In this document: positions 10,049 to 13,332 of the stretch, piece after piece | Layout of the letters: every line of letters begins with the position of its first letter | Numbering within the stretch: position 1 is the first letter of the stretch | The notes under the pieces: generated by a model | Databases searched by the model: none | Seen by the model: the letters and a program-made list of their open reading frames with translations, nothing else | What the model was told of the DNA's origin: nothing | Made by a program: the position numbers and the translations under genes | Source of the DNA: Bifidobacterium tsurumiense | GTDB taxonomy: Bacteria; Actinomycetota; Actinomycetes; Actinomycetales; Bifidobacteriaceae | Assembly (NCBI RefSeq): GCF_000741765.1 | Contig: NZ_JGZU01000015.1 | Span: forward strand, 310,001-374,000 | Length of the DNA: 64,000 nt | Direction: 5' to 3'

Positions 10049-11101
10049 TCACTGCACCTGGGTACGAGCGATCTTGCCGTTGAAGGACTGGGCCTCGTCC
10101 TGATCCTTGACGCCATCCTTGTTCCAGGAGAACATAGCGCGCAGCTTCGGGCCGACCTCTTCGATCCTCTCGTGGCTGTACTTCTCCTGCAGTTCCTTGA
10201 AGTGAGGAGCGCCGGCATCCTGATCGTCGATGAATTCCTTGGCGAAGGAACCATCCTGAATGCGCTTCAGATGGTACTGCATGCGCTCGCGGCAGTCCTC
10301 ACCGATCACGGTGTTGGTGTAGTCGCCATACTGAGCGGTATCGGAGCAGGACCAGCGAGCCTTGTTCAGACCGCCTTCGTTCATCAGGTCAACCAGCATC
10401 TTCAACTCGTGGCAAACCTCGAAGTAGGCGATTTCTGGCTGATATCCGGCGTCGGTAAGCACTTCGAAGCCCATTTCGACGAGCTTGTTCACGCCACCCA
10501 TAAGCACGTTCTGCTCACCGAAGAGATCGGTTTCGGTCTCTTCCTTGAAGGTGGTCTTGATGGCGCCTGCACGCAGAGCTCCCAGTGCCTTGGCATAAGC
10601 CAAGGTCAGATCCCAACCGTCTCCACGCGGATCCTGCTCGACGGCCACAACCACCGGCACGCCACGGCCCGCTGCATATTCACGACGGACGATATGGCCT
10701 GGTCCCTTAGGCGCGACCATGAATACCGGATGGTCTTCGCTTGGCTTGATGTAGCCATAATGAATGTTGAATCCGTGTGCGAAAGCAACTGCCGCACCCG
10801 GCTTGATATTGGGCTCAATATCGTTGGCCCAAATCGTGCGCTGGAACTGGTCAGGAGCCAGAATCATGATGACATCGGCTTCCTTGGTCGCGTCTGCCAC
10901 AGACTTGACCTCAAGTCCCTGCTCCTTGGCGAATTCGACGGACTTGGAGGTAGGACGCAGACCGACCACCACGTCGACACCGGAATCACGCAAATTCAGT
11001 GCGTGAGCATGGCCCTGTGAGCCGTAACCGATGATCGCGACCTTCTTACCCTCGAGCACAGAGAGATCGCCGTCTTGTTCATACCAGATTTGTGCTGCCA
11101 T
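10049..11101 (-). CDS. ilvC: Ketol-acid reductoisomerase
   Basis: Converts acetolactate and acetohydroxybutyrate to dihydroxy acids in valine, leucine and isoleucine synthesis, using Mg and NADPH. The 350-residue class I (short) form has the Rossmann motif [17 protein letters not shown], the phosphate-binding loop LRPTSKS that favours NADPH, and the metal ligands in the ETDLFGEQ helix. A GTG start at 11110 is possible but the GGA of the ribosome site would touch it; the ATG at 11101 has TAAGGAG at proper spacing. It lies downstream of the attenuator-controlled MHS transporter, separated by 455 bp that includes a tiny ORF with three prolines. Bifidobacteria often carry two ilvC copies, so this may be one of a pair. 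Confidence 0.97.
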
Positions 11102-11302
11102 ATTGGGCACTCCTTATAAAGATTTAGTTGTAATACATCTTGAATATTGAATGATGACCAATGTTCGCGATGAACTCTCTCGCACGAGGATTTTGTCCTT
11201 AGCTTCAGCCCATCTTACTCAAAGCATTCAGTTGTTTCCGTGCCATTCCACCAGTCGGGCAGAATACGCGAAGAATTTGCAGAGCCGATGACCGCACCTA
11301 GG

Positions 11303-11336: not shown

Positions 11337-11363
11337 TTATGGCGGAGGGTGAGTCATAGTCAT
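11337..11363 (-). CDS. Putative leader peptide MTMTHPPP upstream of ilvC
   Basis: An eight-codon ORF reads ATG ACT ATG ACT CAC CCT CCG CCA TAA, with AAGGAG six bases before the ATG. It begins 262 bp upstream of the ilvC start and runs straight into a hairpin. Three consecutive prolines are a known ribosome-slowing sequence that depends on EF-P, so the peptide could act in cis by holding a ribosome at the hairpin. It contains no valine, leucine or isoleucine codons, so it is not a standard branched-chain attenuator. The strong ribosome site is seen; function is inference, and a chance ORF this short cannot be excluded. Confidence 0.4.
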   Translation of the reverse strand: MTMTHPPP

Positions 11364-11556: not shown

Positions 11557-12930
11557 CTATGCACTGAAATCAACGTCCCTTGTCTCCCGGCAAGTCAGCA
11601 CAGCGACAAGGCAGCACAACGCCATAACCGCAAGGTACAGTCCGACCGAACGCACACCCCAATGAGAGCTCAGCCATGTGGCGACTGCGGGAACGAATGC
11701 CGCACCTACGATCGCTGCGAGGTTGTAGCCGATTCCAGAACCTGAATAGCGCACATTCGCATCAAATAGTTCAGGCAGGAATGCTCCGATTGGGCCAAAG
11801 GCCATACCCATCAAGGCAAAGCCTACACACAGGAACACCATCACGGCGGCCGCATTGCGATACCCCATCAACAGATATGGGAACACGAGCGCAAACACCA
11901 CCAAAGCGCAAGAGGAAGCCACCAGTACGCGCCTTCTGCCAATGCGATCCGCGTACACGCAAGAGAACACAATCGACGCTGCGAATACGCATACGCCCAG
12001 CATCAGCATGAGCAGATACTCCTGATTGGTGAAGCCCAATCCGCCGCCACCGCGCTCGCGATCCTTGGTGCCATACGCCAATGACCATGTGGCCAAGGTG
12101 TAGAACAGCGTGTAGGTGACCGCGACGATGAATGTGCCCTGGATAAGCTGCTTCCAGCTCTTGCGGAACACTTCGCGCAGAGGCGATTTCACCACGGTGT
12201 TTCGTTGCTGCGCCAGGCGGAATACCGGGGTTTCCTCCATCTGCACACGCACCAGAAGTCCGACGATCACAAGCACTGCGGAAAGCAGAAATGGCACACG
12301 CCATCCCCATGCCAACATCGCGGCATCATCATTGAAGGTTTCAAGCAGGAAATACGTGCCATTGGAAAGGAAGAAGCCGATAGGAGCGCCTAGCTCAGGG
12401 AAGGAGCCGTAGAGTGCTCGCTTGCCCTCAGGGGCGTTCTCAGTTGCCACCAAGGCGGCGCCGGACCATTCCCCGCCAAGGCCGATTCCCTGCACGAAAC
12501 GGCAGAGGCACAGCAGCACAACCGCCGCGATACCCCATGTGGCATAGGAAGGCAGACATCCGATCAGGAAGGTCGCCACACCCATGGTGAATAACGAGAC
12601 CACCAAAGTAACCTTGCGCCCCATGCGGTCACCGAAATGTCCGAAAACAAGAGAGCCCAGCGGACGTGCGATAAATGCAATGGAGAATGTCAAAAGCGAC
12701 ATCAGCAGGGCCACTGTGGAATTGCCGGTGTCCTGGAAAAACACTTTCGGGAAGTAGTTCGCCGCAGCCGTGCCATACGCGTAGAAATCGTAGAACTCAA
12801 TAGCCGTACCCACCATAGAAGCCGCAATCACCGTGCGTACCGACGACCGGCTCATTCGATCCAATTGCGCATGAGCGCGTGAACCCACTCCTGTTTCCGG
12901 CGTACCCATTACGCCGATCTCCTCTGTCAT
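11557..12930 (-). CDS. MHS-family MFS transporter under branched-chain attenuation
   Basis: A 12-span proton symporter of the metabolite:H+ symporter group (457 aa), the family of ShiA, ProP and KgtP. Family features visible are the first span AIEFYDFYAYG, the loop FGHFGDRMGRK, and RFVQGIGLGGEWSGAAL. The ATG at 12930 is chosen because GGAG lies six bases upstream; a TTG four codons earlier is less likely. Its leader carries an Ile/Val/Leu-rich peptide and an intrinsic terminator, and ilvC follows, so its substrate is probably a branched-chain amino acid, its 2-oxo acid or a related metabolite. Substrate is inference from regulation only; sequence alone says organic acid or zwitterion. Confidence 0.88.
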   Translation of the reverse strand: MTEEIGVMGTPETGVGSRAHAQLDRMSRSSVRTVIAASMVGTAIEFYDFYAYGTAAANYFPKVFFQDTGNSTVALLMSLLTFSIAFIARPLGSLVFGHFGDRMGRKVTLVVSLFTMGVATFLIGCLPSYATWGIAAVVLLCLCRFVQGIGLGGEWSGAALVATENAPEGKRALYGSFPELGAPIGFFLSNGTYFLLETFNDDAAMLAWGWRVPFLLSAVLVIVGLLVRVQMEETPVFRLAQQRNTVVKSPLREVFRKSWKQLIQGTFIVAVTYTLFYTLATWSLAYGTKDRERGGGGLGFTNQEYLLMLMLGVCVFAASIVFSCVYADRIGRRRVLVASSCALVVFALVFPYLLMGYRNAAAVMVFLCVGFALMGMAFGPIGAFLPELFDANVRYSGSGIGYNLAAIVGAAFVPAVATWLSSHWGVRSVGLYLAVMALCCLVAVLTCRETRDVDFSA

Positions 12931-13002
12931 GCTTGACTCCAATGCTTAAGTCTTCGCATTCGGACTGTGTACAGGAATGCCCTTGTGGGGCGGTACAACA
13001 AA

Positions 13003-13025
13003 ACCCTGCCGCTGTGTGGCAGGGT
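13003..13025 (-). terminator. Attenuator terminator in the MHS transporter leader
   Basis: On the minus strand ACCCTGCC pairs with GGCAGGGT around a 7-base loop, followed at once by TTTTGTTGT. It lies 73 bp upstream of the transporter start and downstream of the Ile/Val/Leu-rich leader peptide. Transcription stops here unless the antiterminator forms. Confidence 0.88.
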
Positions 13026-13110
13026 CTTTACGCTGGATTGTGTCCGCTCGGGCTCTGCCATCGTTGGCGAGTCCGAACCATATGTCGAATCAGTCCGCCA
13101 ACGAAGACGG
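13017..13110 (-). promoter_or_regulatory. Attenuator: competing 1:2 and 2:3 RNA pairings
   Basis: Segment 1 (13096-13110, minus CCGTCTTCGTTGGCG) pairs with segment 2 (13055-13069, CGCCAACGATGGCAG): nine perfect base pairs, extended by further pairs including one G-U. Segment 2 can instead pair through TGGCAG (13055-13060) with CTGCCA (13017-13022) in the left arm of the terminator. Segment 1 begins immediately after three Ile codons of the leader peptide, so a ribosome stalled for lack of charged Ile-tRNA would cover segment 1, free segment 2 and disrupt the terminator. This is the classical ilv/leu attenuation layout. The pairings were found by eye, not folded computationally. Confidence 0.82.
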
Positions 13111-13161
13111 AATAATAATTCGAACAACTAGGACCAAATCATGCAATTGCATTCCAACCAT
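13090..13161 (-). CDS. Branched-chain leader peptide (23 aa)
   Basis: A short ORF with a near-ideal ribosome site (AAAGGAGG, 9 bases before ATG 13161). The middle of the peptide is LVLVVRIII: eight of nine residues are Leu, Val or Ile, and the three Ile codons (ATT ATT ATT) abut the first arm of the protector stem. It ends with a TGA at 13092-13090. The peptide is too short to have another role and its composition matches the regulatory peptides of ilv and leu attenuators. It senses charging of Ile, Val and Leu tRNAs and controls the MHS transporter downstream. Confidence 0.88.
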   Translation of the reverse strand: MVGMQLHDLVLVVRIIIPSSLAD

Positions 13162-13332
13162 CGTGGCAGACCTCCTTTCGATATTCGTTATCGTATTCAT
13201 CGGTGCTTTACCGATGCTCATAAGCTAGGTCGCATGGCAGTGCTCATACAAGCGCCTGTTCACAATGTGACACAGATCACTTTTGAAATCGTGGTTTCGC
13301 ACCGTACAACACAACCCCGAAAACACAAGAAT

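Follow-up and report, generated by a model that had tools for sequence, protein, structure and literature searches.

The window analysed here is a stretch of 64,000 nucleotides from the genome of Bifidobacterium tsurumiense. On its minus strand, a gene for an MHS-type MFS transporter is followed by ilvC and preceded by a short leader ORF and by a U-tailed terminator, the latter 65 nt upstream of the transporter gene. The features of the locus, in the direction of transcription and with the basis of each in brackets, are:

13258..13270, minus strand: palindrome TCACATTGTGAAC upstream of the leader, a candidate operator (65 of 82 leader loci)
13171..13178, minus strand: Shine-Dalgarno sequence AAAGGAGG of the leader ORF (sequence)
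13090..13161, minus strand: leader peptide ORF MVGMQLHDLVLVVRIIIPSSLAD plus stop, 23 codons, ATG at 13161, stop ending at 13090 (sequence)
13086..13122, minus strand: segment A with B, hairpin CGAAT..ATTCG, inner CCGUC..GGCGG (pairing; predicted fold of the window)
13111..13119, minus strand: three Ile (ATT) codons in the leader ORF (codon counts over 82 loci)
13095..13106, minus strand: segment B, the first stem arm of the original prediction, within the last leader codons (B:C covariation)
13059..13072, minus strand: segment C, partner of B or of D (pairing in the alignment)
13052..13060, minus strand: segment D, antiterminator strand UGGCAGAGC, partner of C or of E (D:E covariation)
13017..13026, minus strand: segment E, 5' arm of the terminator and 3' arm of the antiterminator (terminator scan, E:F and D:E pairing)
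13002..13026, minus strand: terminator hairpin GACCCTGCCACACAGCGGCAGGGTT (sequence, hairpin scan)
13002..13010, minus strand: segment F, 3' arm of the terminator (E:F pairing)
12995..13003, minus strand: U tract UUUUGUUGU of the intrinsic terminator (sequence)
11557..12930, minus strand: MHS-type MFS transporter gene, first gene behind the attenuator, ATG at 12930 (profile match, orthologue position)
10049..11101, minus strand: ilvC (ketol-acid reductoisomerase), second gene, after a gap of 455 nt (gene order conserved in named species)

The leader peptide and strong ribosome site claimed in the original prediction, which had been made from the letters of the window, are both present on the minus strand at the place given, and the strength of the leader Shine-Dalgarno sequence is matched in nearly all relatives. 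In those relatives where the terminator scan detected a hairpin, a T-rich tail lies 3' of it. The region had been suggested for folding, and a 270-nt stretch of it proved more stable than 200 of 200 dinucleotide shuffles (z = -3.2).

The original prediction also proposed a search for the same peptide and terminator upstream of orthologues. Protein searches show that orthologues of the transporter with 75-85% identity exist in most of the genus. The core CGAATTAT[T/G]A was found 213-610 nt before the aligned protein start in 47 of 47 orthologues (at least 75% identity), these being all that had upstream sequence and having been gathered by the transporter protein search alone. A pattern derived from the core matched 79 of 112 Bifidobacterium genus genomes and the reversed control pattern matched none, which, together with the presence of the core in every orthologue, indicates that the element is not a chance occurrence. 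Exact matches within a collection of 84,980 species were confined to Bifidobacterium and Galliscardovia. At E<1e-14 a covariance model (R1) detected the element in 87 of the 112 genus genomes; it also did so in three of the four genomes from a sister genus, there too upstream of an MHS gene. An order-wide sample supplied 138 genomes from other families, and the model found the element in none of them. Across 77 distinct loci the leader C-terminus RII[I/S]P[S/L]SLA[D/A/V] is kept and the N-termini differ freely in length and sequence; leaders of a divergent clade end in RIIISPSAG or similar. When a filter for runs of at least four Ile, Leu or Val residues was applied, the leader was seen only in the B. 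tsurumiense genome and two relatives, a result that would have implied no conservation because the true invariant is shorter.

That family-wide invariant is the codon core CGA-ATT-ATT. Over the 82 leader loci, CGA is present in 82, the first ATT in 81 and the second in 79, counts to be read with the bias of the pattern search towards the core, as the loci were partly gathered by a pattern containing these codons (the 47-orthologue count is free of it). The third codon of the run is not fixed, being ATT in 40 loci, AGC in 29 and ATC in 13, and such an exchange of Ile for Ser agrees with the prediction that stalls at codons 1 and 2 matter most. In their transporter and ilvC genes, relatives encode Ile with ATT at 130 of 2162 positions and Arg with CGA at 35 of 1689, so that the choice of leader codons departs from general usage. 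The claim of branched-chain sensing stands in part: the Ile-Ile run is conserved in related leaders, but the Leu and Val codons are not, their run being restricted to the window leader and a few others. The two near-invariant Ile codons, rather than the Leu/Val run, are therefore the likely sensor. With no conservation of the Leu/Val codons, the amino acid sensed would be isoleucine and not branched-chain amino acids in general, and there is fair evidence that the attenuator is isoleucine-specific.

Structure statistics were taken from an alignment of 65 sequences (A1). Helices B:C and E:F together contain 96.2% standard pairs, with 30 doubly changed cells as against 9.3+/-2.4 in shuffles. B:C alone is 94.5% paired, and in 5 of its 12 pairs both partners have changed; in E:F, 99% paired, this holds for 2 of 7. 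The antiterminator helix D:E is 96.7% paired, both partners vary in 3 of its 7 pairs, and 7 cells are doubly changed (2.8+/-1.4 in shuffles). Sliding the partners by 1-3 columns as a control lowered pairing to 25-58%, and RNAalifold, run without a supplied structure, recovered most of B:C and E:F. At one relative locus (L042) a joint C-to-U and G-to-A change runs across C, D, E and F with the pairings kept. The A:B hairpin is paired in 96% of cells and shows few changes and weak covariation, and C:D is paired in 86% of cells with covariation not above shuffles; these two helices consequently rest on pairing and on simulation. The protector, antiterminator and terminator that had been proposed in classical order are thus borne out by covariation of B:C, D:E and E:F, but the chain is probably longer than the 1:2, 2:3, 3:4 scheme and of the AB/CD/EF kind known from his.

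Of the features by which an attenuator is recognised, a short ORF with a Shine-Dalgarno sequence, conserved tandem Ile codons, covarying and mutually exclusive helices, and a terminator with U tract before the gene are present, and the evidence that the element is a leader-peptide attenuator is good. Very probably it is a transcription attenuator of the ribosome-mediated kind that senses isoleucine and governs the MHS-type transporter gene, with ilvC perhaps reached through read-through. In the proposed mechanism the short leader would be translated by a ribosome which, when Ile-tRNA is ample, would pass the two Ile codons and cover segment B, leaving C to pair with D; with C:D formed, the E:F terminator would form and transcription would end before the transporter. 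When Ile-tRNA is scarce, the ribosome would stall while an Ile codon occupied its A site, B would remain free to take C, and D, thus released, would pair with E, so that no terminator would form and the transporter would be made. If the leader were not translated, the A:B hairpin would be expected to hide B and lead again to termination. Both the response to isoleucine and the direction of regulation are inferred.

Ribosome positions were simulated by thermodynamic modelling, in which the RNA was folded as it stands just before or just after segment E is made and the ribosome was taken to block the RNA as far as 12 nt downstream of the first A-site base. With a ribosome holding Ile codon 1 or 2 in its A site, 98-100% of the 65 sequences formed both B:C and D:E; once it had moved beyond these two codons, 89-100% had formed C:D before E was made. 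When the A site was scanned along the leader, antiterminator formation was greatest no more than one codon away from Ile codon 1, whichever 3' edge from +11 to +14 was assumed, and was lowest at about the stop codon. Equilibrium folding with the full terminator (F present) separated the ribosome states poorly, for which reason cotranscriptional truncation was required. In the window itself the antiterminator UGGCAG:CUGCCA has 6 bp followed by a mismatch and is weaker than in most relatives. Its simulated D:E forms if the upstream RNA is treated as occupied and does not form if that RNA is free, possibly owing to competition with E by the CTGCCA on the Shine-Dalgarno side (13169-13164).

This CTGCCA (13164-13169, minus strand) lies beside the leader Shine-Dalgarno sequence, has the same letters as a part of segment E and could base-pair with D. 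It may be a peculiarity of the B. tsurumiense genome.

The controlled gene had been described as an MHS-family symporter next to ilvC, and profile searches agree, TIGR00883 (metabolite/H+ symporter) being the nearest profile and ilvC the next gene. The transporter gives a full-length best match to TIGR00883 at 418 bits, slightly below the curated cut-off of 443, and no equivalog profile fits it; judged by its sequence, it is a relative of this family and not a certified member. An MHS orthologue is the first gene behind the leader in 73 of the 77 distinct loci and also in the divergent clade, and the placement of the attenuator on a transporter gene is clear. Three genomes (G016, G018 and that of B. 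moraviense, G033) have the leader on a BASS-type transporter, unrelated to MHS, with no adjoining ilvC; G018 and G033 are without a close MHS orthologue. The nearest named equivalog of the BASS transporter is PanS (NF047939), the ketopantoate/pantoate/pantothenate transporter, whose cut-off of 400 bits is not reached (239 bits). B. moraviense has, in addition, a second leader copy directly on ilvC and a degenerate leader on an MHS paralogue. Apart from this degenerate copy, no leader was found on MHS paralogues of 48-57% identity, and none was seen in the inspected region upstream of ilvB in the B. tsurumiense genome. The simplest reading makes the transporter the chief target, with a substrate that belongs to isoleucine metabolism or borders on it. 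The occurrence of the leader on a BASS/PanS-like transporter and on ilvC as well implies that it marks an isoleucine-related gene set and not one substrate. The transporter may move isoleucine itself or a nearby metabolite, such as a 2-oxo acid or precursor.

It could be argued that the real target is ilvC, either within a leader-transporter-ilvC unit or through an ancestral ilvC attenuator into which the transporter was inserted, in which case the leader would say little on the substrate. Where the flanking sequence is long enough, nearly every species does have ilvC 3' of the MHS gene, and the B. moraviense copy shows that the leader can stand on ilvC directly. However, every close orthologue of the transporter comes first behind the leader, ilvC copies that are not behind the transporter are without the leader except in B. 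moraviense, the three BASS-type loci have no ilvC beside them, and the gap between transporter and ilvC, about 250-590 nt, holds its own conserved block upstream of ilvC. Control aimed chiefly at ilvC is therefore rather unlikely.

Conservation of the C-terminal residues of the leader beside a freely varying N-terminus would also be expected of a nascent peptide, RII[I/S]PSSLAD, that arrests the ribosome on a small molecule in the manner of TnaC and not for lack of Ile-tRNA. Against this, the bases conserved in the last codons coincide with the partners of segment C, with which they covary, and the divergent clade loses a codon (IISPSAG) and keeps the pairing. The invariance is moreover one of codons (the rare CGA and ATT) and not of residues alone, and two tandem codons for the amino acid of the downstream pathway agree with tRNA sensing; peptide arrest is accordingly very improbable. 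Hardly any weight attaches to a plain terminator, or a riboswitch or T-box, with an unrelated small ORF nearby: a terminator and a structured leader do exist at the locus, but a search of Rfam, T-box included, matched no family even at a lax threshold, and the ORF with its Shine-Dalgarno sequence and Ile codons is kept in frame across the family.

Enterobacterial attenuators of ilvGMEDA and ilvBN carry several branched-chain codons and control biosynthesis operons. The Bifidobacterium element resembles them in having Ile, Val and Leu codons just before the first stem arm and a terminator before the structural gene, and differs in having only two invariant Ile codons and a transporter as first gene. 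In architecture it resembles the enterobacterial his attenuator (PMC10989985), with which it shares tandem regulatory codons and an EF terminator with U tract and probably also a six-segment chain with read-through by BC plus DE. The simulated behaviour agrees with that chain (AB, CD, EF versus BC, DE): a stall before B would give read-through and a ribosome at the leader end, covering B, would give termination. The Bifidobacteriaceae element has Ile codons instead of His codons and a transporter instead of a biosynthesis target, and no sequence relation is expected. The candidate leader peptides predicted for Corynebacterium, Mycobacterium and Streptomyces (Seliverstov et al. 2005, PMC1262725) likewise come from actinobacterial ORFs with Ile, Val and Leu codons and terminators, but stand on ilvB. 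That study covered B. longum, for which it gives neither a branched-chain attenuator nor a transporter target, and it cites work in which mutations of the S. coelicolor ilvB leader codons were without effect on regulation. Leader ORFs of the Salmonella mgtCBR operon (PMC3641672) likewise control transcription of a transporter operon, there with a Mg2+ transporter, whereas here the codons match the neighbouring ilv pathway. Naville and Gautheret 2010 describe attenuation of ABC transporter genes and leader peptides and do not mention Bifidobacterium, and Bifidobacterium leader genes are treated only statistically, bar one unrelated example, in PMC4833913 (2016). No prior description of the element was found in a non-exhaustive search of open-licence papers, nor a branched-chain attenuator described in this genus of gut bacteria. 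The device is thus of a known kind, a leader-peptide attenuator, on an unusual target, a transporter. It offers a physiological approach to a transporter whose function cannot be assigned from sequence alone, and predicts induction on isoleucine limitation only, dependence on the two codons, and transport of a compound in or next to isoleucine metabolism. The presence of one leader on two unrelated transporters and on ilvC also raises the question of how such devices pass between genes.

In 65 of the 82 leader loci (0.3 expected from shuffles) a palindrome like TTCACATAGTGAA precedes the Ile codons by 130-200 nt; it is a candidate operator of some regulator. The B. tsurumiense genome holds only five sites, including that at the leader locus and one within a coding region. 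The others lie before a BASS/PanS-like transporter, between ThrE-like exporter and PEP carboxylase-like genes, and near a PanE-like reductase, these neighbours being named from unscored reading of their sequences. We tentatively suggest that the MHS and BASS/PanS-like proteins could be interchangeable carriers of one metabolite, most likely a branched-chain 2-oxo acid or a pantoate precursor, that share the attenuator and the operator palindrome, the leader marking an isoleucine-responsive transport set in Bifidobacteriaceae.

The BASS-type gene of B. tsurumiense itself (L242:1590-2603) shares 82% identity with its leader-bearing counterpart; it is preceded by the palindrome but by no visible leader ORF or terminator. 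Within the transporter-ilvC gap of the window, a small ORF (MTMTHPPP) with an SD-like sequence lies at 11337-11363 (minus strand) and was not seen in the relatives compared. The same gap contains the block GGACAAAATCC at 11188-11198 (minus strand; GACAMAATC in a small inverted repeat), which occurs behind a TAAGAT-like hexamer in most relatives examined. Between D and E, the attenuator itself contains the similar GGACACAATCC (13045-13035, minus strand). In many species (L138, L141, L151 and others) the transporter is followed by two copies of ilvC, which share about 83% and 94% identity with the window ilvC.
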